Shown here: positions 32,780 through 47,736 of the stretch, piece by piece
How the letters are laid out: each line of letters begins with the position of its first letter
Numbering within the stretch: the stretch's first letter is position 1
From: Lutibacter sp.
GTDB taxonomy: Bacteria > Bacteroidota > Bacteroidia > Flavobacteriales > Flavobacteriaceae
Assembly: GCA_030683995.1 (NCBI GenBank)
Contig: JAUXPH010000037.1
Span: 1-49,140, forward strand
Reading direction: 5' to 3'
DNA: 49,140 bases
Notes under the pieces: generated by a model
The model's input: the letters and a program-made list of their open reading frames with translations, nothing else
Told to the model about the DNA's origin: nothing
The model's database searches: none
Position numbers and translations under genes: made by a program

Positions 32780-35657
32780 CATTGATATAAAACATCGAAG
32801 CATCTGGCCTAAAAGCCCTTTCAAACCAAATTGGCCTGCGTTCTCCGTTTGGTCCGGGGGCTGGACGTGTCATTTTCATCCATTCTTTATACACCTCGTG
32901 CGATTTGTTAGTGTCCACAAAAATATCGCCATAATGCTCGTCTTTTCCGGGTTTTTCAATGCGAACCCGTTGATGCCAGCAATGCATTCCGCTAATAGGA
33001 TCGGGATGCACGGCGTGGGTAATATTTTGATGTACGCCGCCGTCTTTCCAAAAAATTCGTTTAGAATCTCTATCCGAAGATTCAAAAGGTCCTATGCCGG
33101 AAATGGTGTTCATTTTCCATCCGCCGTTGCCATTGTTTTCAATATTCACCGTAATGGTGGCCCATCTGTTTCCTGTTTTATCTTGTGTCCTTCTCCAGCG
33201 TCCGATATGGTGCGAACAAGCAACAACGCCCGGTTTCATACTTTGCGTTACCCAAACTTTATCGATAAAATAGCCAATATCGGTATTCATTTTTACCAAA
33301 TCGCCTGTTTTAAATCCCCAATTTGCCGCATCATCTGGATGCATCCAAATCGGATTTCTGTTTGAGATTTCCACCAGCCATTTTGCATTTCCTGAACGTG
33401 TATGAATCAACGCCGGCAGCCTGAAAGTTGGAACCAAGACATATTCTCCTTTTGATTTGTCCAAATTATCAAGGTGAATGTGGCTTTTTATATAGGTTGG
33501 CGTGGCATATTCCGGCCATTTCCAATCGACCATCGTTTGTGAATAAAACTCGTTTTTTCTTGATGGCGTTGGGAAACCAACCATGGCTTTTCCATTGATC
33601 ATCACGCCGATGTTTTTTCCGTCTTTGGAAACAACTTGGGTGTTTTCATTCACAATTGCCCCAGTTAACTGCGCTTCGGTCAACAAAGTTTCATTCTTTT
33701 TGTACGATTCCCCGCTTTCAATTTCAAAGGCACCATATTTTTGCATGTATTGCAATTCGGTGATGCCTTCTTTTTTGGCAGTTTCCGGCAATCCAGGCAC
33801 GCGTTCAAAAATATATTGGTAATATTCGTCGATGGTTATTTTTTCTCCCGGACGATATGGCGATTCAAAATGTTTGCGAATTCCCATACTTCCGTCGGGA
33901 TCTATCCGCCAGCTTAATTCAATAAAAAATTCATCTTCTTCCCAAACTTCTCCCGGATTTACCTCGTAAGTTAATGCCACCGGTTTCCCATTTCTTCGTG
34001 CAGCTTCCCTTAAAACCGGCTGACGAAAAGCAACCCAGGTTCCGCCGTGTGTGGCGTATGAATTGATGTCGTGACGTTCGGAAGCCAATCCCATCGGCAA
34101 CACAAAATCGGCGTAAAAAGCGGTTTCATTCCACGTTGGCGTTAAGGCGGCGTGCAATCCAAATTTGCTTTCATCCACAAACATTTCCATCCAGGTAAAT
34201 CCGTCGGGATACGTCCAAACCGGATTGAAAACCCTCGAAAAATAAACATCGAGCTTGCCTCTTCCCTCTTTTAGGAAATGCGGCAGCAATTGGCTCATTT
34301 CAAAAAATGACAAAGGAAATTCTTTTGGAAAATGCAATTCATTCCATTGTTTTTGTGGTTTTGGCGAATTTGGGATACTTGGCGCAAATTTGTTCCAGAT
34401 ATTTGGTGAAGTTCCGCCTTTTGTTCCCACCGCGCCAGTAAGCACTGTCAGAAAATGCAAACAGCGGGCAACAGCCCAGCCACCAAGGTTTGAAGCGCCG
34501 GCAGCACGCCAGTTGTGCGATGCAAAACGTTCGCCTGCTTCACCAATTTTTTGTGCAATCTCCACAATCATATCGGCTTTTACACCCGATTCCTTTTCTG
34601 CAAATTCAGGGGTAAACTCCTTGTACTCCTCAATCATTGCATCAATATAATTCTCAAAAGTAATTGCTTTATCTGCGTGTTTTGCTTTTAAATACTCTTG
34701 CCAGTTGGTCCAGTTTTCTAAATAATTGCGGTTGTACAACTTATTTTGTAAAATATATAACGCCATCGCCAATAAAACCGCGGCTTCAGTTCCCGGATAA
34801 GACGGCATCCAATAATCGGACATACTTGCGGTATTCGATAAACGCGGATCCATCGTTGCCAATTTTGCGCCTTTCATTTTCCCTTCAATAATGCGTTGCG
34901 CGTGCGGATTGAAATAATGACCCGATTCTAAATGTGCGGAAATCAGCAATATAAATTTTGCTTCAGCGTGATCTGGCGATGGCCTGTCGTAACCATACCA
35001 CAAATTATAACCAAAACGCGCGCCCGAAGAACAAATATTGGTATGTGAATTATGTCCATCAATTCCCCAACCCTGCAAAATCCAGTTCATGAATTTTTCA
35101 TGTCCCGGCCTTCCTACGTGATAAGCAACTTCATTGTGGCGATTTTCTAAAATGGCATTTCTGATTCTTAAAGAAATAGTGTCCAATACTTCATCCCAAC
35201 TTACGCGATCCCATTCTCCTTCACCTCTTTTTCCTTTTCTCTTCAGCGGAAATAAAATTCGGTCTGGATCTGTCAATTGATTGATGGTGGCCGGACCTTT
35301 GGCGCAGTTTCTTCCCCGGCTTCCCGGATGGTAAGGATTGCCTTCAAACTTTTTGACTTCCTGAGTTTCTTTGTCGATGAATGCGGTTAATCCGCAAGCA
35401 CTTTCACAGTTAAAACAAGTGGTTGGTACAATTTGATAAGTGACTTTTTCTTTTTTTGGCCACACTTTCGGATTGTATTCTACCCAATTGTCCCATTTTT
35501 CCGGCGGCGGAAAATTCTCATACAGCTGTGCGACTTGTTCATCGGTAAAATGACGCATATCCTGGTCAAATTCCTGATAGCCTTCTTTATGCAAATTAGG
35601 AATGATTCCCAATTTTTCTGCAATTCCTTCTATAAATGATGGTTTCTTGTAACCCAT
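32736..35657 (-). CDS. Molybdopterin (bis-MGD) oxidoreductase catalytic subunit, PsrA/PhsA/SoeA-like
   Basis: A 973-residue DMSO-reductase-superfamily protein. It has a 4Fe-4S site (Cys81, Cys84, Cys88, Cys118), a probable molybdenum-ligand Cys209 in TNICSSGARFGY, and a C-terminal MGD-binding beta-barrel. No twin-arginine or other signal peptide is visible, unlike periplasmic Psr/Phs enzymes, so it should face the cytoplasm, as reported for the SoeA sulfite dehydrogenase. The substrate cannot be read from the sequence; polysulfide, thiosulfate, sulfite or selenate are the family options, and nearby sulfur-uptake genes favour a sulfur compound. The partner is the iron-sulfur/NrfD fusion upstream. 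The last 14 residues come from repeat copy 4. Confidence 0.88.
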   Translation of the reverse strand: MGYKKPSFIEGIAEKLGIIPNLHKEGYQEFDQDMRHFTDEQVAQLYENFPPPEKWDNWVEYNPKVWPKKEKVTYQIVPTTCFNCESACGLTAFIDKETQEVKKFEGNPYHPGSRGRNCAKGPATINQLTDPDRILFPLKRKGKRGEGEWDRVSWDEVLDTISLRIRNAILENRHNEVAYHVGRPGHEKFMNWILQGWGIDGHNSHTNICSSGARFGYNLWYGYDRPSPDHAEAKFILLISAHLESGHYFNPHAQRIIEGKMKGAKLATMDPRLSNTASMSDYWMPSYPGTEAAVLLAMALYILQNKLYNRNYLENWTNWQEYLKAKHADKAITFENYIDAMIEEYKEFTPEFAEKESGVKADMIVEIAQKIGEAGERFASHNWRAAGASNLGGWAVARCLHFLTVLTGAVGTKGGTSPNIWNKFAPSIPNSPKPQKQWNELHFPKEFPLSFFEMSQLLPHFLKEGRGKLDVYFSRVFNPVWTYPDGFTWMEMFVDESKFGLHAALTPTWNETAFYADFVLPMGLASERHDINSYATHGGTWVAFRQPVLREAARRNGKPVALTYEVNPGEVWEEDEFFIELSWRIDPDGSMGIRKHFESPYRPGEKITIDEYYQYIFERVPGLPETAKKEGITELQYMQKYGAFEIESGESYKKNETLLTEAQLTGAIVNENTQVVSKDGKNIGVMINGKAMVGFPTPSRKNEFYSQTMVDWKWPEYATPTYIKSHIHLDNLDKSKGEYVLVPTFRLPALIHTRSGNAKWLVEISNRNPIWMHPDDAANWGFKTGDLVKMNTDIGYFIDKVWVTQSMKPGVVACSHHIGRWRRTQDKTGNRWATITVNIENNGNGGWKMNTISGIGPFESSDRDSKRIFWKDGGVHQNITHAVHPDPISGMHCWHQRVRIEKPGKDEHYGDIFVDTNKSHEVYKEWMKMTRPAPGPNGERRPIWFERAFRPDASMFYINDETSITNFDTQRNE

Positions 35658-35934: not shown

Positions 35935-37551
35935 CTAAGCCAACGGAACTCTTTGCGGTGCTTCCACCCAAATTTTCTCTGTGACTAAAATTCCTGCCAA
36001 TACAAAAACTCCTGATAAAACAGCCACTAATTCTCCAGAACCCAAAAGCAGCAGCGCCAACGGAATTAGGTTTCCAACCAATACGGTCACACCCCAAAAC
36101 AGATTTTTATATCTTCCGTTGACAATCATTTTTACCACCATTTTTGCGGAAGTGGTTGGATGTGTGATGGTCAATTCGGTAACCAGCGTAAATAAGTTTA
36201 CCAACAACGCAATAATCATCGTGTTTCTTAAAATTCCCAACCAGTCTTCATTGCCAAAAACCAATGAAGCAATCGCAAAAATTGCGGTTCCGGCCATAAC
36301 GCTATGCACCAACATGTGCAACGGCAAGGTTGGACTTTGCCAAAAATCGCGGCCTTTTGCCTGGGCAAATAAGAACGCTGTATAAACGGCCAACAATATG
36401 GCGAAAACTGCCGTAATCCATAATAATGCATTTTCCCCTGTCTTTATTTCAAAGAATGTCATTGCGCCCCAAATTGTTACCAACAATCCGAAAACAGTAA
36501 TGGTATAACCGCCTTTCACCAACCAGGAATTCCACTGAGGACGCAATAAAACATTTAAAAATCGGTCTGGCCGGTCTAAATCCATCACCAAGAACAATCC
36601 TGTTAATCCAAGGAAAACCAATGAAATTCCTGCCGACCATAATTTAGCGGTTGGTGAAACTTCATAACCTAAAAGAAAAGCTAAAAACGGAATTAAAAAT
36701 GCGCCTGCAGCAACGGCTTTGGTAAATACATAGGTTGAAACTTCCCATCCCCACAATATTCCTTTATCCGGCGTATCGTAAACCCTGCGGGCTTTTCCGT
36801 TCAATACATCAATATAATTCGGATTTTCACTGTCTTTTCTTTGATAAGCAGCTTCAATATCATTGTCGATAGTCATCTGCAATAAATCAAACTCCTTATT
36901 GCTGTACATCATTTTTTCTGCGGCTTTCGCAAAATGCCCAACGCCACGTGCTTGTGAACTCCACATACTTGGACCCGATCTGTCGGTTGCTTCCGGAACT
37001 AATGAAGAATCATCTGCATCTATATAAAATAAATTTGGATTGGTTCCTTTTTCGGGCTTTCGGACTTTCACCGCCTGACGCGCCAATAATTGGGAAATTT
37101 CCGTGTTTGGATTGTGCATATCTCCTGCAATAATGGCGTGTTCCGGACAAACAGAGACACAAGCAGGTTCGCGGCCAACATCAACTCTGTGCGCACAATA
37201 ATTACATTTCGCGGCCGTATGGGTGTCTGGATCAATATACAAAGCGTCGTACGGACAAGCTTGCATACACGATTTACAGCCAATACAACGGTTGTTGTCG
37301 AAATCCACAATTCCGTCTTCACGGGTATAAAGTGCCTGAACCGGACAAATTTCCACGCAAGGGGCGTCGGTACAATGATTGCATCGCATTACGGAAAAAA
37401 TTCTTCGGGTATTTGGAAATTCTCCTTTTTCAACCTGCTTCACGTAGGTTCTGTTAACTCCAATAGCCACGTCATGTTCTGATTTACAGGCTGTTGTACA
37501 AGCGTGACAACCAATACATTTTCGATTGTCGATTATAAAACCATACTTCAT
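35935..37551 (-). CDS. Fused four-cluster ferredoxin and NrfD-type membrane subunit (PsrB-PsrC fusion)
   Basis: A 538-residue protein. Residues 1-180 carry sixteen Cys in four groups (12,15,18,22; 57,60,65,69; 89,92,95,99; 116,119,131,135), the pattern of PsrB/DmsB subunits with four 4Fe-4S clusters. Residues 260-538 contain about eight membrane helices of the NrfD/PsrC type that exchange electrons with quinone. In most Psr-like enzymes these are two proteins; here they are one. It would pass electrons between the menaquinone pool and the molybdoenzyme encoded next. There is no signal peptide, so the clusters face the cytoplasm, matching the Tat-less catalytic subunit. Its promoter has a Crp/Fnr-type site. 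Confidence 0.9.
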   Translation of the reverse strand: MKYGFIIDNRKCIGCHACTTACKSEHDVAIGVNRTYVKQVEKGEFPNTRRIFSVMRCNHCTDAPCVEICPVQALYTREDGIVDFDNNRCIGCKSCMQACPYDALYIDPDTHTAAKCNYCAHRVDVGREPACVSVCPEHAIIAGDMHNPNTEISQLLARQAVKVRKPEKGTNPNLFYIDADDSSLVPEATDRSGPSMWSSQARGVGHFAKAAEKMMYSNKEFDLLQMTIDNDIEAAYQRKDSENPNYIDVLNGKARRVYDTPDKGILWGWEVSTYVFTKAVAAGAFLIPFLAFLLGYEVSPTAKLWSAGISLVFLGLTGLFLVMDLDRPDRFLNVLLRPQWNSWLVKGGYTITVFGLLVTIWGAMTFFEIKTGENALLWITAVFAILLAVYTAFLFAQAKGRDFWQSPTLPLHMLVHSVMAGTAIFAIASLVFGNEDWLGILRNTMIIALLVNLFTLVTELTITHPTTSAKMVVKMIVNGRYKNLFWGVTVLVGNLIPLALLLLGSGELVAVLSGVFVLAGILVTEKIWVEAPQRVPLA

Positions 37552-37578: not shown

Positions 37579-37586
37579 CAAAATTA
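37579..37586 (-). promoter_or_regulatory. -7 promoter element of the molybdoenzyme operon
   Basis: TAATTTTG on the minus strand (TAnnTTTG), 27 bases before the start codon. No TTTG stands at -33; instead a 10-bp palindrome and a Crp/Fnr site lie upstream, as expected for an activator-dependent promoter. Confidence 0.6.
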
Positions 37587-37609
37587 ACCAAACTAATTGT
37601 TAGTTTGGT
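37587..37609. promoter_or_regulatory. Perfect 10-bp inverted repeat between -7 element and Crp/Fnr site
   Basis: Arms ACCAAACTAA (37587-37596) and TTAGTTTGGT (37600-37609) with a TTG spacer. It sits exactly between the -7 element and the Crp/Fnr-type site and covers the -33 region, so it may be the operator for another regulator. Confidence 0.6.
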
Positions 37610-37620
37610 GATATTGATCA
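37609..37620. promoter_or_regulatory. Crp/Fnr-type binding site of the molybdoenzyme promoter
   Basis: TGAT-ATTG-ATCA, extended to a G...C pair on both sides. The centre (37614.5) is 35.5 bp upstream of the last base of the -7 element (37579), about -40 from the expected transcript start, the class II activator position. The same spacing occurs at 47086-47097. Confidence 0.65.
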
Positions 37621-37679
37621 CGCAAAAGATTATTTAGACCAATTTTAAAATGAAGCGCCATTTTTAAGCAGAAATAATT

Positions 37680-37687
37680 TAATTTTG
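37680..37687 (+). promoter_or_regulatory. Possible -7 promoter element of moaD
   Basis: TAATTTTG on the plus strand, 14 bases before the moaD ATG. The Crp/Fnr site is about 76 bp upstream, so the divergent moaDE pair might share it. Confidence 0.45.
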
Positions 37688-37701
37688 CTGAAATAGAAGC
37701 G

Positions 37702-37944
37702 ATGAAAATTCAATTGTTATTTTTTGGTATTGCAACCGATTTGGTTGGTGAAAATTCAATTTTTTATGAATTGAAATCGGATGAAACTGTGCTGGCCTTA
37801 AAAAAGGATTTGCTGTTGAAATATCCAAAATTAAAAAACATCGAAGAATTTGCCATTGCCGTAAATGAGGAATATGCCGAAGATAATCTGGTTTTAAAAG
37901 AAAATGACGTGGTGGCAATTATTCCGCCGGTAAGCGGAGGATAA
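37702..37944 (+). CDS. moaD: Molybdopterin synthase small subunit MoaD
   Basis: An 80-residue ubiquitin-like sulfur carrier ending in the essential Gly-Gly (PPVSGG). The C-terminal glycine is adenylated by MoeB, thiocarboxylated, and used by MoaE to put sulfur on cyclic pyranopterin monophosphate. It is divergent from the molybdoenzyme operon and followed by moaE 121 nt downstream. Confidence 0.92.
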   Translation: MKIQLLFFGIATDLVGENSIFYELKSDETVLALKKDLLLKYPKLKNIEEFAIAVNEEYAEDNLVLKENDVVAIIPPVSGG

Positions 37945-37975
37945 AGCCCCCTAACCCCCAAAGGGGGAATTATTG
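37945..37975. repeat. GC-rich hairpin repeat after moaD
   Basis: CCCCCTAACCCCC-AAA-GGGGG hairpin directly after the stop codon; related sequences are at 38489-38510 and, inverted, at 38622-38656. It could also act as a terminator or processing hairpin. Confidence 0.6.
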
Positions 37976-38065
37976 ATTAAAAATTAATGATGAATCATTA
38001 AAAGTTGAAAATTCTTAAATTAATTCATTGCCTAATTGTCCAATTTGCTCGTAACTAATTAACTT

Positions 38066-38488
38066 ATGAAAAACACCGCTGTTTTAATTACTTCTGAAAA
38101 ATTGAAGGTTCAAGATTGTTACGATTTTGTGCAGGATGCGTCTTGTGGCGGCATTGCATTATTTGTGGGCACTGTTCGGAATTCCACGAAAAATAAGGAA
38201 GTTACTTTATTGGATTTTAGCGCTTATGAACCGATGGCTTTAAAAGAAATGCAAAAAATTGCAGATTTAGCTCTGACAAAGTTTCAAATCCATAAAATAG
38301 CCATTCATCATGCGGTTGGCGAATTACAAATTGGAGATATTCCCGTGATTATTGCGGTTTCATCTGCACACCGGAAAGCGGCTTTTGAAGCCTGTGAATT
38401 TGCCATTGATACCTTAAAAGAAACCGTTCCCATTTGGAAAAAAGAACATTTTGAAGATGGTGAAGTTTGGGTGAATTCACATCCGTAG
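38066..38488 (+). CDS. moaE: Molybdopterin synthase large subunit MoaE
   Basis: A 140-residue catalytic subunit of molybdopterin synthase. GGIALFVGTVRNSTKNKEV, the AYEPMALKEM helix, the segment SSAHRKAAFEACEFAIDTLK and the C-terminal VPIWKKEHFEDGEVWV with the catalytic lysine are all typical. It works with MoaD. The GC-rich repeat begins right after its TAG stop. Confidence 0.95.
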   Translation: MKNTAVLITSEKLKVQDCYDFVQDASCGGIALFVGTVRNSTKNKEVTLLDFSAYEPMALKEMQKIADLALTKFQIHKIAIHHAVGELQIGDIPVIIAVSSAHRKAAFEACEFAIDTLKETVPIWKKEHFEDGEVWVNSHP

Positions 38489-38662
38489 CCCCCTAACCCC
38501 GGAAGGGAGACAGAGCGTTAAGAAAATGTTCTGTGAACATTTTTAGCGATAGGGCCAGCTGGCGCGTTGGCAATTGAAAAGTCGAAAGTTTTTTGTTAAA
38601 AATAATATTCTAATTTCAAATCTAACTCCCTTTCCTTGGGAAAGGGCTGGGGATAGGAATTT
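38489..38662. repeat. Repeat-bounded spacer between convergent moaE and MutS-like genes
   Basis: Left end CCCCCTAACCCCGGAAGGGAG; right end ACTCCCTTTCCTTGGGAAAG followed by GGCTGGGGATAGG, roughly its inverse. Between them are a terminator-like hairpin (38523-38544) and the palindrome GCCAGCTGGC (38554-38563). Confidence 0.55.
38523..38544 (+). terminator. Intrinsic terminator after moaE
   Basis: AAAATGTTC-TGT-GAACATTTTT stem with a T-run, 35 bases after the stop codon. Confidence 0.65.
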
Positions 38663-40432
38663 TTATATAATTTCCATTTTCTTTAACAAAAAAGAGGCAT
38701 TCATATTTTTACAGATTCCTTCTTTCAGTTTGTAATCGAAAAACAATTCCTCATTAATGATTTCAGCATCAAAATAATAGTTTTGCACTTCTGGCAGTTC
38801 CTTTTCAATTTCACACAAACTTAAATCGTGCGTGGCAATAATTCCCGTCGATTTAGAACTCACCAATTTCTGGACAAATTTTTTGGAGCCAATCGCTTTA
38901 TCGGTACTGTTTGTTCCTTTAAGAATTTCATCTAAAATGATAAAATAATCTTCATTTTTAATTTCATCCGCAATAAATTTTAAGCGCTTCAATTCAGAAA
39001 AGAAATACGATTCATTGTCGGCCAAAGAATCGGAAGTTCGCATACTGGTAATCAATTTTATGGGCGAATATTTAAATTCATCGGCACAAACTGGCAAACC
39101 CATATTTCCCATCACAATCGACAAGGAAACGGTTCTTAAAAAAGTGCTTTTTCCGGCCATATTTGCACCGGTAACAATAAAAAATTGTTGATTTTCAATG
39201 ATAAAATCATTATCAACCCGCTGCATAACTTTCAACAAAGGATGTCCTAAATTTTTAGCAGCAATCACATTTTTGTGTTGTTCAATTTCGGGAAAAACAA
39301 AACCAGGATGGTTAAAAGCAAAATTTGCCAAGGTGTTTTGTGCGTCAAAAAAAGCAATCACGTGAATCCAATCCGCCACTTTGGATTTATAACTATCCAT
39401 CCATTTTTCCAAATGATGGGCCAATTTCAAATCGCGCAATAAAAAAGCATTTCCAAAAAAAGCGATAATCAGGTTATTTCGCTGGTCAAAAGCGTCCAAT
39501 ATTTTAGAAAACTTGGCGAAAATAACAGATGCTTTTTGGGATTCAGTCTCAATTTCCTGTTGCTTTTCCTTTAAAATTCGAGAATCAAACGACGCGGTTT
39601 CAATTTCATTCAGCAATTTATGGTATTGCTTAAAAGTGTCTTTGGCATTGCTCGCTTCTTTATACAACTCGTTGACTTTATTGTAATAAACACCTGAAAT
39701 CCCCAATCCGACAAAAATCCAAAGTATCAGTATTTGGTCGGCGATCATTTGCATAGCTATAAGTCCGATTAAAACCAATGATATTATTGAAAACAGTGTT
39801 GGCAAAAAGGACAAAAATTTGGGAAATACCGATTTGTAATTTTGAATCCAGCTGACAATTTCCTTTGCGGGATGCTCCACTTTCACCAAACTTGCCAATG
39901 CAGAAAATCGCTGCCGCCATTTGGGTTTTTTACTTAATTCTTGAATGCCTTGCTGCTTTTTAGGAATGTTTAAAATGTCATTATTGGTCAGTAAACCAAC
40001 AAAATTCAGTTTTCCCTCGTTGGTAACGGTTCGGTTCGCGTATTGAAAAAAAGATCCTTTGCCAAACAAATCAATGTCGTAACTAAAAGGATGCGCAGGA
40101 TTTATAAATTCATTTCCGCCATTTAAGGAGAAATAATCCCTGTTTAATACGTTGATTTCCGTTTTATTTATTTCGATTAAAGCTTTGTTAAGATCGCTTT
40201 TATATTGCAATTTAGCATGTTTAGTCAATAAATAAACGAACAAAATCACGGCAATTACCGCTATATAAATCATCATTTTAGCATTGCCAAAAAAGAAATA
40301 AATGCCGGCAACGGCCGTTAAAAATACGATCAGTCGCAAGGAACTTGAAAGTGCCAATTGCTTTTTTAAACTTTTTTGTTCCTGCTCAAAAAAAACTTTT
40401 TCAGCAGTATAAAATTCTAGTGGTTTTTGCAT
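38663..40432 (-). CDS. Membrane-anchored MutS-family ATPase
   Basis: A 589-residue protein. Two membrane helices at about 31-70, a second pair at about 205-250, a coiled middle (260-350), then a complete MutS-type ATPase domain: Walker A GANMAGKST (422-430), MRTSDSLADNESYFFSELKR, Walker B with Glu in FIILDEILKGTNSTDK, and the switch His in IIATHDLSL. It lacks the mismatch-recognition domain of MutS and the Smr nuclease domain of MutS2. Such proteins occur in Bacteroidota with no known role. It is the last gene of the Moco operon and directly abuts moeB (no intergenic base). Whether it acts on DNA at the membrane is unknown. Confidence 0.85.
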   Translation of the reverse strand: MQKPLEFYTAEKVFFEQEQKSLKKQLALSSSLRLIVFLTAVAGIYFFFGNAKMMIYIAVIAVILFVYLLTKHAKLQYKSDLNKALIEINKTEINVLNRDYFSLNGGNEFINPAHPFSYDIDLFGKGSFFQYANRTVTNEGKLNFVGLLTNNDILNIPKKQQGIQELSKKPKWRQRFSALASLVKVEHPAKEIVSWIQNYKSVFPKFLSFLPTLFSIISLVLIGLIAMQMIADQILILWIFVGLGISGVYYNKVNELYKEASNAKDTFKQYHKLLNEIETASFDSRILKEKQQEIETESQKASVIFAKFSKILDAFDQRNNLIIAFFGNAFLLRDLKLAHHLEKWMDSYKSKVADWIHVIAFFDAQNTLANFAFNHPGFVFPEIEQHKNVIAAKNLGHPLLKVMQRVDNDFIIENQQFFIVTGANMAGKSTFLRTVSLSIVMGNMGLPVCADEFKYSPIKLITSMRTSDSLADNESYFFSELKRLKFIADEIKNEDYFIILDEILKGTNSTDKAIGSKKFVQKLVSSKSTGIIATHDLSLCEIEKELPEVQNYYFDAEIINEELFFDYKLKEGICKNMNASFLLKKMEII

Positions 40433-41512
40433 TTAATAATTTATGATGCCTTCAGACAAACTGACTACAGAAAGCAATGGATATTTTTCTTTTAGTTTTA
40501 AGGTAATTTCATAGCTTGTAATTCCTTTTTTACAAACAATGACATAGTTTTTTTGAAAATTGGGATCAAAAGTTTCAACATCAAAAACATTGTAAGGCTT
40601 TTTCTGATGCACTTTGAACGGAATAAATTCTTCCGAATTATTAAGAATGCTCACAATTTCCAAGGATGAATCGCCTATTTTTTCTTTTAAAACTGAAGCA
40701 GAAATCAGCAAAGAAGGATCCTGATTTGCGCAGGTTTCAACCACATAATCAGAATTTTCGAAAATAGATTTTATGTCCAAAGATGTGTTTTTCTTCAACT
40801 TCATTTTGAGCTGTGAATTTTCCAAAGAATTGTAAATTAGCAATTGATTGGTCAGTAATTTACCCGTTTTGGTAATTAACTTAATCACCTCATTTACCTG
40901 CAAAAGCGCAATCATTCCAACAATGGGATTCATCGTTCCGGCTTCTTCGCAATTGGGAATATCAGTAGCGATTTTGGGAAATGCGTCCCGTAAATTACAG
41001 CTGTAATTTCCGTCTTCACCCAACACATTAAACGTTGCCGCATAACCGTCGAATTTATACAAAGAGCCGTAAACCAGAGGTTTTTTAGCGAAAACGCAAG
41101 CGTCATTTATCAAATATTTTACCTGCAAATTGTCGGTTCCGTCAACCACCACATCAACTTCTGAAATCAATGCCAAAATAGAATTTTTAGTCACGGCTTC
41201 ATTGGTTGTGGTAACTTTGGTGAAAGGCGTTCTTTTTTTGATTTCATTGGCCAGCACTTCTGCTTTTGGCTGATGAATATCTTCCGTTTTATAAAAAACC
41301 TGACGGTGCAAATTAGAAACCGAAACGGTGTCAAAATCCACCAAATGAAGTTCTCCAATACCGCTTGCCGCTAAATAAACCGCAACCGGACTTCCCAAAC
41401 CGCCACAGCCAATCACCAATACTTTTGCCTTTCGCAATAGTTCTTGTCCGGCTACACCAATTTCGGGCAACGTGGTCTGACGCAAAAAATAGCTTTCTTT
41501 ATCGAAGTTCAT
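40433..41512 (-). CDS. moeB: MoeB/ThiF-family adenylyltransferase with C-terminal rhodanese-like domain
   Basis: A 359-residue E1-like enzyme. Residues 1-245: nucleotide motif GCGGLGSP (36-43), DFDTVSVSNLHRQ, DGTDNLQVKYLIND and a catalytic-type region around NCEEAGTMNPIVG. Residues 265-359: a rhodanese-like fold with the candidate active Cys in VIVCKKGITSYE. It activates the MoaD C-terminus and may itself deliver sulfur. In a standard MoeB there are CxxC zinc sites; none is clear here, which I note as odd. It lies between mobA (44 nt) and the MutS-like gene (0 nt). Confidence 0.88.
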   Translation of the reverse strand: MNFDKESYFLRQTTLPEIGVAGQELLRKAKVLVIGCGGLGSPVAVYLAASGIGELHLVDFDTVSVSNLHRQVFYKTEDIHQPKAEVLANEIKKRTPFTKVTTTNEAVTKNSILALISEVDVVVDGTDNLQVKYLINDACVFAKKPLVYGSLYKFDGYAATFNVLGEDGNYSCNLRDAFPKIATDIPNCEEAGTMNPIVGMIALLQVNEVIKLITKTGKLLTNQLLIYNSLENSQLKMKLKKNTSLDIKSIFENSDYVVETCANQDPSLLISASVLKEKIGDSSLEIVSILNNSEEFIPFKVHQKKPYNVFDVETFDPNFQKNYVIVCKKGITSYEITLKLKEKYPLLSVVSLSEGIINY

Positions 41513-41556
41513 AATCGATTTAAAATTGAATGTTGTTTCACGGTAAATTTGTGAAT

Positions 41557-42672
41557 TTATTCCTCGTTTATTTCTTTGTGCGCAGCTTTAAATTCCTCAG
41601 GAGTATTGATATTTCTGATGAATTCATCATCAACCTCAATAATTTCAATGTTGGAATTAAGCAACACTTTTCGCGGACAAGAGTATCCCTGGCCTAAATA
41701 ATTTAACAATAACAGGTAACTTTTAGGTTCCCAAATGGTGATTAAAGGCTCTGGAAACTCACTGCTTTTTCCTTTGATTGCGGTTGCAGCTTTTGACGGA
41801 TTTCTGTGATTCAGCAACAATTTAATCACTTCATCATTCACAAAAGGCAAATCGGTTGCCAAAACCAGCCAGGCCACATCCGGATTTTCCTGAAACGCGG
41901 AACAAATGGCGCCAAACGGACCTAAACCCACAAATTTGTCGGTGATTTTATTCTCTATCCCAATTTCCTGGTCTTCCCTAACAGATAAATAGGTTTTTAA
42001 ATGGTTTTTTTCCAACAATTCAATCGCCACATCGCGCTGGTTTTTTCCATAAAAGTTAAGCGTGCCCTTATCGGTTCCCATTCTGGTGCTTTTTCCGCCG
42101 GCCAAAACCAATCCGTGAATGGGCGCTATTTTTTCTTTGATTAAATTTTCAATGTGCTTTGAAATCTTGTCAATTTCCTCAATCTGATAACACAGCAAGT
42201 TTTTAATCTGCGGATTTTTTGCTTCTAAAAAATCGAAATATTTGGCATTATCGGTCAATTTTACAACAAATTGAATGTTGTTTAGTTGATCCAATCTTTT
42301 CAACACAGAAGCTTCTTTATCGTTGTCTAAAATCAATATTTGTTTGGCGCCTTGGTAATGATTACCGTTGATAAACAAAAAATCATATTGCGAAAACTGA
42401 ATGCGCTGATTGAATTTATTGAGCCCAATTTCTGCTGAAATATTTGCAGTTCCCTTAGAGTGAAAAGTAAAAGAATCAACTGCATTTTGTTCTGTTTCTT
42501 CAGCATGCGATGCGTCTAAATATGCCAATTTATACTGCGCCAATTTTGCAGAAACCTGCTGAACCAAATCAGCAATAACACTGCATTTTGTGCCAACAAT
42601 TGAAATTTCATTCGGCGCAAAATTGTCGTTTTCCCTTAATTTAAGTTTTGCGTGTTTTTGATGTTTACTCAT
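41557..42672 (-). CDS. mobA: Molybdenum cofactor guanylyltransferase MobA with degenerate MobB-like N-terminal domain
   Basis: A 371-residue protein. Residues 185-371 are MobA: LVLAGGKSTRMGTDKG (188-203), the metal-binding ATDLPFV, and HRNPSKAATA. It adds GMP to molybdopterin to make MGD, which the bis-MGD enzyme of this island needs. Residues 20-180 resemble the P-loop protein MobB (start ISIVGTKCSVIADLVQQVSAK), but the GxxxxGKT loop is gone, so the domain should not bind GTP. It overlaps moaC by 8 nt. Confidence 0.87.
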   Translation of the reverse strand: MSKHQKHAKLKLRENDNFAPNEISIVGTKCSVIADLVQQVSAKLAQYKLAYLDASHAEETEQNAVDSFTFHSKGTANISAEIGLNKFNQRIQFSQYDFLFINGNHYQGAKQILILDNDKEASVLKRLDQLNNIQFVVKLTDNAKYFDFLEAKNPQIKNLLCYQIEEIDKISKHIENLIKEKIAPIHGLVLAGGKSTRMGTDKGTLNFYGKNQRDVAIELLEKNHLKTYLSVREDQEIGIENKITDKFVGLGPFGAICSAFQENPDVAWLVLATDLPFVNDEVIKLLLNHRNPSKAATAIKGKSSEFPEPLITIWEPKSYLLLLNYLGQGYSCPRKVLLNSNIEIIEVDDEFIRNINTPEEFKAAHKEINEE

Positions 42673-43144
42673 TTTTTATGTCGCTTTTTCCTCCGGATTT
42701 TTTCACCAGTTTCACTTCTTTAATCACCATTTTTTGCGAAATGGATTTGCACATATCATAAACCGTCAATGCAGCAATAGTCGCGCCAGTTAACGCTTCC
42801 ATTTCAACGCCGGTTTTTCCTTCGATAGAAACGGTACACACAATCTCAATATTTTCTTTATCGCAAATTTCAATATCAATGTCAACGCCGTTTATCAATA
42901 ACGGATGGCACATTGGAATGAGTTCCGATGTTTTTTTAACCGCCTGAATTCCCGCAATAATCGCCGTTTGGAAAACCGGACCTTTTTTGGTGACCAACTC
43001 TTTATCGTCAAAATGCGCAATAATTTCTGAGCCTAAAAACATAGTGGCTTTTGCGGTTGCAGCGCGATTGGTGACTTTTTTATCACCAACATTGACCATT
43101 TTTGGCTGATTTTTTTTATTGATATGAGAAAATTTATTTTCCAT
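42665..43144 (-). CDS. moaC: Cyclic pyranopterin monophosphate synthase MoaC
   Basis: A 159-residue enzyme that converts the MoaA product to cyclic pyranopterin monophosphate. MVNVGDKKVTNRAATAKA, PMCHPLLINGVDID, the catalytic-type EMEALTGATIAALTVYDMCK and the C-terminal KSGGKS are typical. It is 37 nt after moeA and overlaps mobA. Confidence 0.95.
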   Translation of the reverse strand: MENKFSHINKKNQPKMVNVGDKKVTNRAATAKATMFLGSEIIAHFDDKELVTKKGPVFQTAIIAGIQAVKKTSELIPMCHPLLINGVDIDIEICDKENIEIVCTVSIEGKTGVEMEALTGATIAALTVYDMCKSISQKMVIKEVKLVKKSGGKSDIKNE

Positions 43145-43181
43145 AAGTGAAAGATTGCTTTACTGCCTAGGCAATGGCGGA

Positions 43182-44402
43182 TTACTGTCGATAAATAATT
43201 ACAGGAAAAACTTCTCCTTTGGTAAAATTACTGCGATTATCCGGCAATTCCAAAAAAGCATCGGCTTCGACCAAATTGGCCAAATCTCCAGATCCTTTTC
43301 CTGAAATGGGTGTTGCCATTAATTTGCCTTCAACTTGGCTCAATTTCACCTGCAAAAAATAAGTCAGCTCTGGTTTAAAATAAAAATCTTCACTTAAAAT
43401 GGCCTGCTGTTTGTTTTCAAAATTCAATCCAACGGATTTACAATACCACGGATTAAAATATTTTATACAATTTACAAAAGTTGACACAGGGTTTCCGGGA
43501 AGCGCGAAAATTGTTGTTTCACTTCGACTCCGCTCAGTGTAGACTTTTCTGCCAAACCAAAATGGTTTTCCCGGACGTTGTTTTACTTCGTGAAAAAGTT
43601 TTTCAACGCCCAATTCATTTAACACTTCGGGAATAAAATCGAATTTTCCTTTGGAAACCGCACCGCTGAATACAAGCACATCATAATTGTTCAATAACGA
43701 TTCTATTTTGGTTAAAAGCACTTCTCTATCGTCCAAAATGTGCAAGGTGTCGGCTTTTATATGCAGTTTTTCCAACAAAGAAACCATCGTAAAAACATTG
43801 CTTCTTCTAATTTGATGATCGGCCGGGATTTCGCCAACTTCAACCAATTCATTGCCGGTTGAAACAATGATTACTTTTGGCTGTTTTGCAACTTTTACGG
43901 TGGATTTTCCAACGGTGGCAAAAACGCCAATTTCGGCAGGAGAAATGAGGGTGTTTTCTTTGATCAGCAAATCGCCCTGCTTTTTGTCGGTTCCTTTTAA
44001 ATGAATATTCTGAAAGCTTTTTAAAGCATCTAAATTTATAGTTGCAGTTCCGTTTTCAATAGTCAACAATTCATATTGAATAACGGCATCGGTATTTTTT
44101 GGCAGCACTGCGCCCGTCATCGCTTCCATACAATTGCTGGTATTTTGAAGCGTTAATTGCGCACTTCCTGCAGCCTGAATTCCTTCAATATTAAATTTCC
44201 TTTGTCCGTTGTTAAATGCTTCTGAGGAAATCGCAATTCCGTCCATACTTACCCTGTCAAATGGCGGGAAATCGCGATCTGCAAAAATATTCTCCTTCAA
44301 AATTCTTCCGCAGGAATTCAAAAAATCAACTTTTTCTATTCCGAAATTTTGAGAATTATTGACAACGATTTCTAAGGCTTCTTTTACTGTGGTTAAGCTC
44401 AT
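43182..44402 (-). CDS. moeA: Molybdopterin molybdenumtransferase MoeA
   Basis: A 406-residue enzyme that inserts molybdenum into adenylated molybdopterin. FPPFDRVSMDGIAI at the start, EAMTGAVLPKNTDAVIQYE, STGNELVE, SGAVSKGKFDFIPEVL and KQRPGKPFWFGRK, then FALPGNPVSTFV. Between FGRK (residue 286) and TTIFALPG there are nine extra residues, VYTERSRSE (287-295), encoded by a small palindromic repeat (43518-43544) in frame. The insert is in a loop beside the strand before the conserved LPGNP and may be tolerated. Confidence 0.94.
   Translation of the reverse strand: MSLTTVKEALEIVVNNSQNFGIEKVDFLNSCGRILKENIFADRDFPPFDRVSMDGIAISSEAFNNGQRKFNIEGIQAAGSAQLTLQNTSNCMEAMTGAVLPKNTDAVIQYELLTIENGTATINLDALKSFQNIHLKGTDKKQGDLLIKENTLISPAEIGVFATVGKSTVKVAKQPKVIIVSTGNELVEVGEIPADHQIRRSNVFTMVSLLEKLHIKADTLHILDDREVLLTKIESLLNNYDVLVFSGAVSKGKFDFIPEVLNELGVEKLFHEVKQRPGKPFWFGRKVYTERSRSETTIFALPGNPVSTFVNCIKYFNPWYCKSVGLNFENKQQAILSEDFYFKPELTYFLQVKLSQVEGKLMATPISGKGSGDLANLVEADAFLELPDNRSNFTKGEVFPVIIYRQ
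43518..43544 (-). repeat. Small palindromic repeat inserted in frame in moeA
   Basis: 27 bp including CACTTCGACTCCGCTCAGTG on the plus strand; on the minus strand it reads VYTERSRSE. Related to 35692-35714 and 15202-15225. Confidence 0.7.
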
Positions 44403-44433
44403 ATAAATTAGTGGTTAGTAATTATCAATTGGT

Positions 44434-45420
44434 TTACCCTCCAATGGTTGACATACTTTCCGAAACAACGTTTTCCCGAGCAGCTTCAGCTATAAATCCG
44501 TTTTCCGGTTTGTGATGAACGGTATCGATAAACAGTTTTTTAAGTTCGTCATCGCTTGCGCCATTTCTTATAAAATCACGAACGTTAAAAACGCCTCCGT
44601 CAAAAAGACAGTTTTTAAACATTCCTGTTGAAGTAATGCGAATTCGGTCACAATCGTTGCAAATAGTGCGGGTAAACGCCGGGATAATACCAAAAGTTCC
44701 CAGATAATTTGGAATTCGATAATTTACTGAGGTAGAAGATTTTTTGGATAAAATAGATTCCACATCCGTATAATTGTTTTTGATAAGGTTCAGTATTTTT
44801 TTGAAATTCCAAACTTCTTGCATCAATCTTTGCCCTTTTCCGTTGAAAGGCATTTCTTCAATAAAACGAACTGCAATATCCTTGTTTTTGGTAAGTTCAA
44901 TAAAGTCGATGATCTCATCGGTATTGACGCCCGACTGCACAACCACATTCAGTTTTAATTTTAAACTGCTTTTCTCCAGCTTTACAAAAGTGTCATAAAC
45001 ACTGTCGAAAACATCTCTTCGGGTAATTTTTGCAAATTTTTCCTTCTGAAGGCTGTCCAAACTCAAATTAATGGCATTGATTTTAAAAGCTTCCAATTTA
45101 TCGATATGGTTTGAAATTAAAGCGCCGTTGGTGGTAATATTAATTTCCTCCAGTTTATCATTAAAAGAAAGCGATTCCAAAAAATTCACAAAATCTTTTC
45201 GCACAAAAGGTTCTCCGCCTGTTAAACGGACTTTATTAACACCCAATTCGGAAAGTACACGGGTAATTCGGTACATTTCTTTATAGGAAAGCAGTTCTTT
45301 TCTGTCCACAATATCAATTCCGTGAGCTGGCATACAATATTGGCAACGCAAATTGCAACGGTCGGTGACTGCCAATCGCAAATAGGTGATTTTTCTTCCG
45401 AATTTGTCTAATAACTCCAT
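44434..45420 (-). CDS. moaA: GTP 3',8-cyclase MoaA
   Basis: A 328-residue radical-SAM enzyme for the first step of Moco synthesis from GTP. The SAM cluster is Cys22, Cys26, Cys29 (TDRCNLRCQYCMPA); the second cluster is Cys254, Cys257, Cys271 (CNDCDRIRIT and FKNCLF). It ends in the required Gly-Gly (STIGG). The start codon overlaps the stop of the Crp/Fnr gene (TAATG), so the two are coupled. Confidence 0.96.
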   Translation of the reverse strand: MELLDKFGRKITYLRLAVTDRCNLRCQYCMPAHGIDIVDRKELLSYKEMYRITRVLSELGVNKVRLTGGEPFVRKDFVNFLESLSFNDKLEEINITTNGALISNHIDKLEAFKINAINLSLDSLQKEKFAKITRRDVFDSVYDTFVKLEKSSLKLKLNVVVQSGVNTDEIIDFIELTKNKDIAVRFIEEMPFNGKGQRLMQEVWNFKKILNLIKNNYTDVESILSKKSSTSVNYRIPNYLGTFGIIPAFTRTICNDCDRIRITSTGMFKNCLFDGGVFNVRDFIRNGASDDELKKLFIDTVHHKPENGFIAEAARENVVSESMSTIGG

Positions 45421-46052
45421 TAATTCAGGGTAATTTTATTTCTTCCCAATGTTACTGTTTCATCTTTTTCCAGTTTTTCCAGAATCCTTGATATGGCTTC
45501 CCGGGAAACTTTTAAATCGCGTGCAATGTCAAAATGTTTTTTATTGATGGTGTTTTCATTGGTAATTAAACTGTTATATTCCAAATATTTTAACAACCTG
45601 AACTCTAAATTTTCAAAAGCGATATCGTTAATTTTCTCAATTAAAAACGCTGTTTGCTGATGATTTAATTTAAAATAAAAAGAACGCCACGTGCTGTATT
45701 TTAAAAACCACGAAATTACAACTTTCGATGGAATTGCAATGTAGGTTACGTTACTTTCGGCTTTCAGCCTAATGTCGCATTTTTTATTTTCAATTGCATA
45801 AGTTATGGCGATTGCGCTGGTTTGTTTTGCCGTTAAATAATGCAAAAAAATTCCGTTTCCTTTTCCGTCGCGTCGCTTAACTTTTACAATTCCTGATACA
45901 ATTAATGGAATAAACTCAATATCCGTCCTAACATCTATAATTATTTTATCAGCCTCAACAGTTTTTAAAATGCCATTGTTACAAATTTCAGTCCGTAAAT
46001 TTTCTTCAAATAAATCAGAAAAATTAGCTGCAACAATGTCGTGTATTTTCAT
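45420..46052 (-). CDS. Crp/Fnr-family transcriptional regulator (Moco operon)
   Basis: A 210-residue regulator with a cyclic-nucleotide-type sensor barrel (about 25-115) and a winged helix at about 150-205. The recognition helix reads VSREAISRILEKL, with the E-xx-SR arrangement known from Fnr (preference for TTGAT half-sites). No clear N-terminal Cys cluster for an iron-sulfur sensor is present and cAMP contacts are not evident, so the signal is unknown. It lies inside the operon yedE-yedE-crp-moaA-moeA-moaC-mobA-moeB and likely binds the TGAT-N4-ATCA sites at 37609 and 47086. Confidence 0.88.
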   Translation of the reverse strand: MKIHDIVAANFSDLFEENLRTEICNNGILKTVEADKIIIDVRTDIEFIPLIVSGIVKVKRRDGKGNGIFLHYLTAKQTSAIAITYAIENKKCDIRLKAESNVTYIAIPSKVVISWFLKYSTWRSFYFKLNHQQTAFLIEKINDIAFENLEFRLLKYLEYNSLITNENTINKKHFDIARDLKVSREAISRILEKLEKDETVTLGRNKITLN

Positions 46053-46060
46053 TTTTAGAC

Positions 46061-46474
46061 CTAATTAGGCAGTTTATCTTTAAAAAGTCCATAGAAAAAT
46101 GCTCCCAACGTAGCTCCGAAAATGACCACCAAAATGGAAACAACACCTTTGCCGATGAGCACAAACATTGGTCCCGGACAAGCGCCGGCCAATGCCCAGC
46201 CTAATCCGAAAAGGATTCCGCCCAAAAGATTGCGTGACAATCCTTCTTTTTTAGGCATTACATGAATATCATCTCCTTTAAACGTTTTTACCATTTTTTT
46301 CTTGAATAAAAACATGCTTATCATTCCCAATACAATTGCAGAACCAATTATTCCGTACATATGAAACGACTGGAACTTAAACATTTCGTATATTCTGTAC
46401 CACGAAATTATTTCGGCCTTGCTCATCACAATTCCAAAAAGTATCCCCACTAAAAAAAACTTTATATATTTCAT
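46061..46474 (-). CDS. YeeE/YedE-family sulfur transport protein, short subunit
   Basis: A 137-residue membrane protein with about four helices and the family motif GWALAGACPGPMFVLIGKG, whose Cys is thought to contact sulfur compounds in YeeE/YedE (TsuA) thiosulfate transporters. It and the 185-residue neighbour together make the size of one full transporter. It starts 4 nt after that gene and ends 8 nt before the Crp/Fnr gene. Confidence 0.88.
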   Translation of the reverse strand: MKYIKFFLVGILFGIVMSKAEIISWYRIYEMFKFQSFHMYGIIGSAIVLGMISMFLFKKKMVKTFKGDDIHVMPKKEGLSRNLLGGILFGLGWALAGACPGPMFVLIGKGVVSILVVIFGATLGAFFYGLFKDKLPN

Positions 46475-46478
46475 GATG

Positions 46479-47036
46479 CTAAAATATTAGGGGTAAAATT
46501 AACCAAGTCATTATTAAGCCTCCAATAAAAAAGCCAATTACGGCGATTAATGAGGCCAATTCTAAATTGCTCAAACCAACAATTGCGTGGCCAGATGTGC
46601 AGCCACCAGCCCAACGTGCGCCAAAACCAACCAAAAAACCTGCGATGATTAAAATAGCAAATCCTTTTAAAGTGAGCATCGTATCAATACTGAAAATTTC
46701 ATCGGGCAAATAAGTTTGTCCTGCGTTCATAATTCCAATATCGGCCAAATCTTTTACCGTTTGCGGATTTATGGCAACCGCGTCTGTTGTAGTTAAATAA
46801 TTTGATGCTATAAAACCGCCAGCAATAGACCCGGCAATAAAAATTAGATTCCATAAATTCTCTCGCCAGTCAATTTTAAAATAATTAACAAACTTTCCCG
46901 CTCCGCCAATGGAACAAAATGTTTCCAGATTTGATGACACCCCAAATCGTTCACCAAAATAATAGAGCAAAAACATAACAAACGAAATTACAGGACCGGC
47001 AACATACCATTCCCAAGGTTGCATAATAAAATCCAT
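46479..47036 (-). CDS. YeeE/YedE-family sulfur transport protein, long subunit
   Basis: A 185-residue membrane protein with about four to five helices. Motif FGARWAGGCTSGHAIVGLSN with the conserved Cys matches YeeE/YedE. It is probably the first gene of the long Moco operon, and its promoter carries a Crp/Fnr site. Proposed cargo: thiosulfate or a related sulfur anion, by family knowledge only. Confidence 0.88.
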   Translation of the reverse strand: MDFIMQPWEWYVAGPVISFVMFLLYYFGERFGVSSNLETFCSIGGAGKFVNYFKIDWRENLWNLIFIAGSIAGGFIASNYLTTTDAVAINPQTVKDLADIGIMNAGQTYLPDEIFSIDTMLTLKGFAILIIAGFLVGFGARWAGGCTSGHAIVGLSNLELASLIAVIGFFIGGLIMTWLILPLIF

Positions 47037-47055
47037 AATATATATTTATAACTAT

Positions 47056-47063
47056 CAAAAATA
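47056..47063 (-). promoter_or_regulatory. -7 promoter element of the yedE-moco operon
   Basis: TATTTTTG on the minus strand (TAnnTTTG), 19 bases before the start codon. No -33 TTTG is seen. Confidence 0.6.
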
Positions 47064-47083
47064 TCTTAAATTTTAAATTATTT

Positions 47084-47099
47084 TGTGATTATCATCACA
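47084..47099. promoter_or_regulatory. Crp/Fnr-type binding site of the yedE-moco promoter
   Basis: Perfect TGTGA-N6-TCACA, which also contains TGAT-N4-ATCA (47086-47097). Its centre (47091.5) is 35.5 bp upstream of the last base of the -7 element (47056), identical to the molybdoenzyme promoter. Confidence 0.75.
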
Positions 47100-47103: not shown

Positions 47104-47736
47104 TTAAAATTCCAGGATCTCAATCTTATTTCTGTGCAGTTTTATTTTTCCCTCATTTTCAAGTTGTTTCAGCAATCGTGAAATAACGACACGGGAAGTA
47201 TGCATATCGTATGCGATGTCTTGGTGCGTTGTGTTTAGTGAGGTTTCTCTCATAATTTGGGCTTTGTCCGTCAAATATTTATACAGTCGCTCACTCATAT
47301 TCATAAAAGCCAAACTATCGATGGTTTCCATCATTTCATTTAACCGAATGTTATAGCTTTCGATCACAAAAGTTCGCCAGGATTTATATTTTAACATCCA
47401 TTCATCCAGTTTTTCCTTCGGAAGAAAAATAATTTCAGATTCCTTTTCTGCGGTGGCTCTAATTCCGCATCTGCCATTGGAGATGGCGCTCGCAAACGAA
47501 CTGGCGCAAGTGTCGCCGCGTTCCAAAAAATACAATAAAATTTCCTCTCCGTTTTTATCTTCGCGCACAATTTTAATGGCACCTTCCAACAACAAAGGAA
47601 TGCCTTTCATTTTATCGCCTAAATCGACCAATATTTCATTTTCGCGCAATTTTTTATATACGCCTACCTGAACAATTTCATCTATCAATTCCTTTTCAAA
47701 AACAAACGAATAATATTTTTCTAGTTTTTCTCTCAT
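47104..47736 (-). CDS. Crp/Fnr-family transcriptional regulator (waaA-linked)
   Basis: A 210-residue paralogue of the regulator at 45420: sensor barrel (about 25-115) and winged helix (about 165-205) with recognition helix TSRVVISRLLKQL, where Val replaces the Glu of the Fnr-type E-xx-SR motif. The two may therefore differ in site preference. It starts inside the waaA stop codon (ATGA overlap), so it is transcribed with waaA, and ends five bases before the Crp/Fnr site of the next operon. Confidence 0.88.
   Translation of the reverse strand: MREKLEKYYSFVFEKELIDEIVQVGVYKKLRENEILVDLGDKMKGIPLLLEGAIKIVREDKNGEEILLYFLERGDTCASSFASAISNGRCGIRATAEKESEIIFLPKEKLDEWMLKYKSWRTFVIESYNIRLNEMMETIDSLAFMNMSERLYKYLTDKAQIMRETSLNTTHQDIAYDMHTSRVVISRLLKQLENEGKIKLHRNKIEILEF

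Follow-up and report, generated by a model that had tools for sequence, protein, structure and literature searches.

A conserved Crp/Fnr-type site at a class II distance in promoters of a candidate sulfur-oxidation regulon of Lutibacter and other Flavobacteriaceae

Introduction

Here, we analyze two promoters of a molybdoenzyme island in Lutibacter sp., carried on a 49,140-nucleotide stretch of DNA (assembly GCA_030683995.1, contig JAUXPH010000037.1; hereafter, the window). The island encodes a molybdopterin oxidoreductase (MoE) with its membrane subunit BC, the two halves of a YeeE/YedE-family sulfur transporter (YedEa and YedEb), proteins for molybdenum cofactor (Moco) synthesis, and two Crp/Fnr regulators, CrpA and CrpB. 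An earlier note on this DNA had claimed that the BC-MoE and the yedE-crpB-Moco promoters share one Crp/Fnr site at identical spacing. We find that this site is conserved in homologous promoters of Flavobacteriaceae and precedes further sulfur genes, and we argue that the two palindromes probably belong to a class II Crp/Fnr-activated sulfur-oxidation regulon served by CrpA and CrpB as sister activators.

Results

The 12-bp palindromes occupy positions 37609-37620 (BC-MoE promoter) and 47086-47097 (yedE-crpB-Moco promoter), with centers at 37614.5 and 47091.5. At both promoters, a 22-bp spacer separates the palindrome from a TAnnTTTG box, and the center lies 35.5 bp from the last base of this box. 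Re-reading of the sequence confirmed these coordinates and the identical spacing, as given in the earlier note, and also bore out its remarks that a −33 element is lacking (neither promoter has a TTG at the −33 place; in the examined stretch, TTG starts 56, 39, and 5 bp upstream of the −7 box in the BC promoter and 60 bp upstream of it in the yedE promoter) and that two Crp/Fnr genes lie nearby (Table 1). Taken alone, the parts are unremarkable in the window: TGAT-N4-ATCA occurs three times versus 1.46 expected, with 21 of 100 shuffles reaching three, and TAnnTTTG is not enriched (70 versus 78 expected). The composite of the palindrome and TAnnTTTG at a spacer of 20-24 bp occurs twice, at a shuffle mean of 0.015, and none of 200 shuffles contained two. 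Allowing spacers of 18-26 bp, the whole genome to which the window belongs (hereafter, the own genome) has 15 TGAT-N4-ATCA composites versus none for the backwards-read pattern, and composites on both strands exceed the backwards control in every one of the 38 Lutibacter genomes searched.

In Escherichia coli, the sites for class II activation by CRP and FNR are centered at about −41.5. The sigma-A box TAnnTTTG of Flavobacterium psychrophilum maps to −12 to −5 according to PMC9723704; with the box at this position, the palindrome center would lie at −40.5 for a spacer of 22 bp and at −41.5 for a spacer of 23 bp. Based on the distance and on the position of the box in F. psychrophilum, we infer that the site is at a class II position at both promoters. 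What stands of the proposed class II activation is a site at the class II distance that is conserved in homologous promoters, with a geometry suggestive of the activation itself. The yedE site is, moreover, at the center of an imperfect palindrome that is longer (47069-47111) and reaches into the end of crpA; judged by eye, its longer arms are not retained to the same extent in the compared relatives, which keep a site.

To follow the BC promoter across relatives, we compared enzyme relatives, keeping the 80 best among 185; 11 of the 80 had no BC start in reach. The record titles gave 43 Flavobacteriaceae loci, 17 of them from Lutibacter, and 26 other loci; this split includes a few metagenome-assembled genomes titled only Bacteroidetes or Flavobacteriia, and L166 (L and G numbers denote loci and genomes), which is titled Lutibacter sp. 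and absent from the genus matches, was counted as outside Lutibacter. A perfect TRAY-N4-RTYA palindrome at 21-23 bp from TAnnTTTG precedes BC in 28 of the 43 Flavobacteriaceae loci (shuffle mean, 0.02). When spacers of 10-40 bp were counted, 25 of these 28 composites had exactly 22 bp and none fell outside 22-23 bp. The scan did not demand an outer G and an outer C, and both are invariant in all 28 sites; the base at position four of TGTnA is G or A, at ratios of 14:14 and 12:16 in the two halves. The conserved motif is GTRAY-N4-RTYAC and not TGAT-N4-ATCA; it reads GTGAT-N4-ATCAC in the close relatives of the window and GTAAC-N4-GTTAC at most homologous BC sites outside Lutibacter. Within Lutibacter, the BC site has a spacer of exactly 22 bp in the 26 genomes with readable sequence (window included), in 24 of them without a mismatch, and a site is present at the homologous place in 21 other Flavobacteriaceae loci with a spacer of 22-24 bp. 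The synteny of the island is kept in most Lutibacter loci that reach far enough.

The surroundings of the BC site hold two more repeats. The inverted repeat CCAAACTAA-TTG-TTAGTTTGG (37588-37608) separates the site from the −7 box and, among the aligned relatives, is present only in the window, L047, and L073. A second inverted repeat, TTTAAA...TCTAAA in the BC direction (37633-37649), lies ~29 bp upstream of the BC site, between this site and the moaD promoter, with a spacing of 28-30 bp in 21 of 28 aligned rows; it is akin to the repeat TTTAGAATCATTCTAA in the feoAB promoter (L011) and is perhaps a Fur box, Fur being a guess. We also considered that the BC palindrome is shared with the divergent moaD promoter and set this aside, as the distance to the moaD −7 box varies from 64 to 75 bp (26 of 28 rows have both).

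In the own genome, TGAT-N4-ATCA lumps two sets of sites and was rejected as the defining motif. The G and C directly outside the palindrome are present in 3 of the 15 composites, i.e., at the BC and yedE promoters (Table 1) and before a gene for a SulP protein (L010), and all three have a spacer of 22 bp. The other 12 lack these flanks: two are intragenic (L001 and L002), one has no nearby gene in the right direction (L008), and nine precede genes (L005, L006, L007, L009, and L011-L015), with a spacer of 23 bp in seven of the nine. Going by their translations, these genes encode 2-oxoacid:ferredoxin oxidoreductase-like proteins (L005 and L007), pyruvate phosphate dikinase, FeoAB (L011), a multiheme cytochrome, a PAS-type kinase, a Crp paralogue, and two less clear products. 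As several are anaerobic-type genes, the nine composites are probably targets of another, Fnr-type anaerobic regulator. The site of the crp paralogue (L117 3672-3683, G000:C71) lies within a terminator-like hairpin with a T run, and the sequence following this site is retained in G012, G029, G032, and G035. A composite with GTAAC-N4-GTTAC at L115 5306-5347 (minus strand, G000:C32) is kept in several Lutibacter; its direction is away from the 3' end of a long gene on the minus strand.

Besides the enzyme promoter, we analyzed the promoters of yedE and of genes for SulP, persulfide dioxygenase (PDO; the name we give here to a protein that combines a metallo-beta-lactamase fold with rhodanese domains), and a small rhodanese, using the 30 best loci per search (out of 35 SulP, 33 PDO, and 39 rhodanese matches). 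The target proteins were identified by Pfam and NCBIfam matches, several of which are below the cut-off, and the last base of the −7 box was left free in the SulP, PDO, and rhodanese counts. In Lutibacter, the composite precedes SulP in 28 of 30, PDO in 27 of 30, and rhodanese in 26 of 30 loci (shuffle means, 0.1, 0.08, and 0.17, respectively). In G011, the same cluster also holds two pyridine nucleotide-disulfide oxidoreductases, of which one is close to sulfide:quinone reductase. Upstream of yedEa, the site is present in 14 of the 17 Lutibacter loci with crpB; in other genera, a matching palindrome was found by eye, its spacing not scored, in 14 of 28 upstream regions. Five other loci (L207, L209, L210, L212, and L213) have crpA, yedEa, yedEb, and BC in one row. 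The common conserved site supports the regulon of sulfur uptake, Moco synthesis, and enzyme put forward in the earlier note, and by this motif the site set is larger than claimed there, with SulP, PDO, and rhodanese genes in it too. The scan of homologous promoters that the note had suggested was fruitful insofar as the BC palindrome is kept; the motif it named, TGAT-N4-ATCA, is not the conserved specificity and would for the most part have picked up the unflanked sites.

Because the fourth base of the half-sites varies, we scored each BC promoter with a site for a G at this base in a half and its genome for the yedE-linked crpB. The count comprises 47 rows with the outer G and C demanded; six site-less loci are outside it, L050 and L053 are incomplete, the second copy of G037 (L068) was left out, and for G034 and G014, crpB was scored as present from contig-terminal fragments of 50 and 33 residues. 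A G in one or both halves was present in 27 of 27 loci with crpB versus 1 of 20 without, most of which have GTAAC-N4-GTTAC; i.e., TGTGA-type halves go with the presence of crpB, in a set of related genomes in which the absence of crpB from metagenome-assembled genomes may reflect incomplete assembly (G339 has no Crp match at all). Outside Lutibacter, 26 loci were examined; the sole crpB-positive one, L199, has G in both halves; its crpB product is 43% identical with the helix TSRETISR, and the gene lies directly 3' of yedEb.

The SulP sites of Lutibacter are G/G in 29 of 29 crpB-positive cases and A/A in the three crpB-negative genomes (G013, G018, and G036; one of these sites carries a mismatch), and SulP of three further crpB-positive genomes outside these 32 rows (G001, G005, and G034) is also G/G. 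In G018 and G036, crpA-yedEab is followed by mutS2, without intervening crpB and Moco genes. The SulP sites are likewise G/G in four crpB-positive genomes without a MoE match (G009, G015, G023, and G025; two are <70% complete), arguing that the base tracks crpB and not the enzyme. The rhodanese and, mostly, the yedE promoters of crpB-positive genomes carry the other type: rhodanese is A/A in all 22 loci with a site, and of the 14 loci in which yedE has a site, 12 are A/A (GTAAC-type) and two, the window and G002, are G/G. On the MoE tree, the enzymes of L135 and L152, counted as outside Lutibacter, branch among Lutibacter and their promoters are A/A as in crpB-negative hosts, which hints at transfer with promoter adaptation.

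CrpA is a member of the CRP/FNR superfamily, with Pfam matches above the cut-off to cNMP_binding (43.7 bits) and HTH_Crp_2 (37.4 bits), and in Foldseek its model matches CRP structures with a probability of 1.00 and template modeling (TM) scores mostly of 0.5-0.6 (best among the matches listed, 0.72). CrpB scores below the HTH_Crp_2 cut-off by sequence (24.2 versus 27); its model (predicted local distance difference test score, 92) matches Vfr and CRP at a TM score of ~0.8 and places it in the same superfamily. In CRP, conserved residues of the GEL..RS region in the pocket contact cAMP. The CRP stretch GDFIGELGLFEEGQERS aligns with GDTCA-IT...KKKS of the CrpA profile, and CrpA differs from CRP in lacking these pocket letters and having a conserved Cys in that place; by this comparison, it does not classify as a cAMP-dependent CRP. 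The recognition helix of CrpA, TSRVV[VI]SR, aligns gap-free with SRETVGR of CRP and hence has a Val at the place of CRP Glu181, where CrpB (VSREAISR) retains Glu. This Val and Cys77 are invariant in 23 aligned CrpA proteins, selected at ≥40% identity. As described in PMC11253593, Arg180 of CRP reads G2, and Arg185 together with Glu181 reads the G4:C4 pair; the base that varies among the sites analyzed here is the fourth, i.e., the pair contacted by Glu181 and Arg185. We rejected a change in the CrpA helix as the cause of the site change, as this helix is identical in the window clade and other Lutibacter except for Ile/Val at one place, and also the rule that any Glu-type paralogue gives TGTGA sites, which paralogues with SSREVISR contradict.

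MoE has molybdopterin, Fe4S4, and dinucleotide-binding domains, and none of its 22 NCBIfam matches is above the cut-off. Among solved structures, the best relative is 2vpw, which was deposited as a thiosulfate reductase. Plasmids of Thermomicrobium, Rhodococcus, and haloarchaea encode relatives with 51-58% identity; SoeA is not annotated in any of the 13 plasmid records retrieved. In Rhodococcus jostii, the enzyme pair follows TusA, a DsrE-like protein, and metallo-beta-lactamase hydrolases, with ArsR also neighboring; the listed neighbors in Thermomicrobium and Natrinema are not sulfur genes. By its domains, MoE-BC resembles the sulfite:quinone oxidoreductase SoeABC, as described in PMC8076601, in having a molybdenum bis(pyranopterin guanine dinucleotide) subunit, a subunit with four 4Fe-4S clusters, an NrfD-type anchor, a predicted cytoplasmic side, and a sulfur-oxidation context; it differs in that B and C are fused in one protein. 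A twin-arginine leader was not seen in the MoE translation, which fits a cytoplasmic enzyme of this kind. We propose that MoE-BC is most likely a cytoplasmic, quinone-linked sulfite oxidoreductase of the SoeABC kind. The genes and promoter elements of the island are listed in Table 1.

Table 1. Promoter elements and genes of the molybdoenzyme island, with positions in the window
Feature	Position	Strand	Basis
Palindrome GTGATCAATATCAC, Crp/Fnr-type, BC-MoE (molybdoenzyme) promoter	37608..37621	-	Sequence and comparison of homologous sites
−7 element TAATTTTG, BC-MoE operon	37579..37586	-	TAnnTTTG kept at the same spacing in relatives
Palindrome GTGATGATAATCAC, Crp/Fnr-type, yedE-crpB-Moco promoter	47085..47098	-	Sequence and comparison within Lutibacter
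−7 element TATTTTTG, yedE-crpB-Moco operon	47056..47063	-	Sequence
crpA, Crp/Fnr regulator with Cys77 and Val at the CRP Glu181 place (TSRVVISR)	47104..47736	-	Pfam, profile alignment, model
crpB, divergent Crp/Fnr paralogue with Glu at the CRP Glu181 place (VSREAISR)	45420..46052	-	Pfam, model
yedEa, YeeE/YedE-family sulfur transporter, first half	46479..47036	-	Pfam Sulf_transp; NCBIfam TsuA, weakly and under the cut-off
yedEb, YeeE/YedE-family sulfur transporter, second half (DUF6691)	46061..46474	-	Pfam
BC, fused 4Fe-4S and NrfD-type membrane subunit of the molybdoenzyme	35935..37551	-	Pfam
MoE, molybdopterin oxidoreductase catalytic subunit	32736..35657	-	Pfam, NCBIfam, structure comparison
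moaA	44434..45420	-	NCBIfam TIGR02666 above cut-off
moeA, moaC, mobA/B, moeB/thiF (Moco synthesis)	40433..44402	-	moeA, mobA/B, moeB: NCBIfam matches below cut-off; moaC: translation
Divergent moaD and moaE	37702..38488	+	moaD: ThiS-family match; moaE: translation

Discussion

The site conserved upstream of the enzyme, yedE, and further sulfur genes is the basis of our proposal of a class II Crp/Fnr-activated sulfur-oxidation regulon. According to this model, dimers of CrpA and CrpB would bind the palindromes and activate transcription from a center at ~−40.5 on sigma-A promoters that have TAnnTTTG and no −33 element. The regulon would comprise YedE uptake, PDO, rhodanese, the molybdoenzyme, Moco synthesis, and SulP sulfate transport. 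A sulfur species would enter via YedE, PDO and rhodanese would oxidize it to sulfite, MoE-BC would oxidize sulfite to sulfate, and SulP may export the sulfate. A candidate for the signal is a sulfur species acting at the thiol of Cys77 in CrpA; a Crp-like protein of Acinetobacter baumannii is persulfidated according to PMC7315123.

Within this model, CrpA (Val at position 181) would be the older, widespread regulator of TGTAAC-N4-GTTACA sites, and CrpB (Glu) would be an added paralogue that reads the TGTGA-type halves in front of BC-MoE and SulP. CrpA would activate the yedE-crpB-Moco operon and rhodanese, and CrpB would activate BC-MoE and SulP. In the window clade, the yedE promoter would have changed to G/G (TGTGA type), adding positive feedback by CrpB, and this switch may be why the yedE and BC sites now look alike. 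We propose with more reserve, and as an idea that falls somewhat short of even chances, that a natural change at position 181 has split this regulon: CrpA would keep the TGTAA halves of rhodanese and, mostly, yedE, CrpB would have taken the TGTGA sites of the enzyme and SulP, and the bases would switch upon gain or loss of crpB. Because CrpA-type sites precede the yedE-crpB operon in most Lutibacter loci with a site, CrpA and CrpB would form a feed-forward cascade.

Several observations weigh against the regulon or its split. As for the presence of the site, the composite precedes BC in 0 of 26 loci of other families, and a BC site is lacking in 6 of the 26 loci outside Lutibacter that were examined, among which L140, L142, L150, and L169 have crpA upstream on the same strand. 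Under a strict rule, the yedE site is absent from the crpB-negative G018, G019, and G036 and from three crpB-positive loci, and rhodanese lacks a site in 5 of 30 loci; outside Lutibacter, the SulP upstream regions are site-less in 22 of 22 genomes, including the crpB-positive G350. As for the link between site type and crpB, L170 has one G half without crpB, the 27 PDO promoters of crpB-positive genomes do not follow the rule (A/A in 10, one G in 14, and two G in 3), and the crpB-negative G019 has one G half at its PDO promoter. Some genomes with A/A sites encode Glu-type paralogues of another group, with SSREVISR, and the 181 place is occupied by Ile or Thr in some CrpA-class paralogues. On the MoE tree, the BC contrasts reduce to four supported independent pairs (sign test, P = 0.125), which go as expected in nearly all random pairings and never in the opposite direction; the SulP tree gives two independent contrasts, both as expected (P = 0.5).

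The sorting of site types by promoter in crpB-positive genomes (rhodanese A/A, SulP G/G, and yedE mostly A/A) and the A/A SulP sites in all three crpB-negative genomes argue against the explanation that CrpA alone reads all sites, with its Val181 ignoring the fourth base, G and A drifting, and CrpB doing something else. We regard this as unlikely, even though it would accommodate the G/A variation in the 28 aligned BC sites, the mixed PDO site types irrespective of crpB, and the expectation, from PMC11253593, that Val at 181 should forfeit the contact to C4. Alternatively, an Fnr-type, oxygen-responsive regulator could use the TGTGA-type sites, in which case BC and SulP would join the other TGAT-N4-ATCA targets. 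The own genome encodes two other regulators with Cys-rich N-termini (L105 and L107), and the TGAT-N4-ATCA core is common to the 12 unflanked composites, several of them before anaerobic-type genes; however, the two-sided G..C flanks are confined to BC, yedE, and SulP, all with a spacer of 22 bp versus 23 bp in 7 of the 12 others, and the site type tracks the presence of crpB, making this explanation quite improbable. A reading of the palindromes as terminators of transcription, or as repeats that lie beside promoters by chance, is very hard to sustain: the yedE site lies 6 bp past the crpA stop codon within the longer imperfect palindrome and the site of the crp paralogue in C71 lies in a terminator-like hairpin, but the exact spacing to the −7 box is kept across genera without a longer hairpin, and the shuffles refute this view for the BC, SulP, PDO, and rhodanese promoters.

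The proposed Crp/Fnr regulon shares with class II promoters of CRP and FNR a palindrome that overlaps the −35/−33 region, a fixed distance to the −7/−10 box, and the lack of an upstream core element; it differs in the Bacteroidota sigma-A promoter with TAnnTTTG and in half-sites that read TGTAAC or TGTGAT. Substitutions of Glu181 in CRP (also called the catabolite activator protein) alter specificity at the fourth G:C pair. Here, too, variation at this residue goes together with variation at this base pair; unlike in those mutants, the change is natural and lies between two paralogues of one island. In A. baumannii, a yeeE-yedE-pdo2 operon is controlled by BigR (PMC7315123), which likewise places a YeeE/YedE transporter and a persulfide dioxygenase under one sulfur-responsive regulator. 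BigR, however, is an ArsR-family repressor, as stated in PMC12423496, whereas the candidates here are Crp/Fnr-type activators, and the regulon proposed here adds the molybdoenzyme, Moco synthesis, and SulP. The sulfur-sensing regulators in the passages used for comparison belong to other families, FisR and the ArsR type (PMC7315123 and PMC12423496), and in the literature listings searched and the passages cited, we found no paper on a Crp/Fnr sulfur regulon in Flavobacteriaceae.

If our model is correct, a Crp/Fnr-activated sulfur-oxidation regulon would extend across much of the Flavobacteriaceae and show class II geometry on a promoter as unusual as that of Bacteroidota. The CrpA/CrpB pair would represent a natural experiment on how one contact alters specificity in a duplicated regulator and in its sites, and the YedE/molybdoenzyme island would gain a physiological role.

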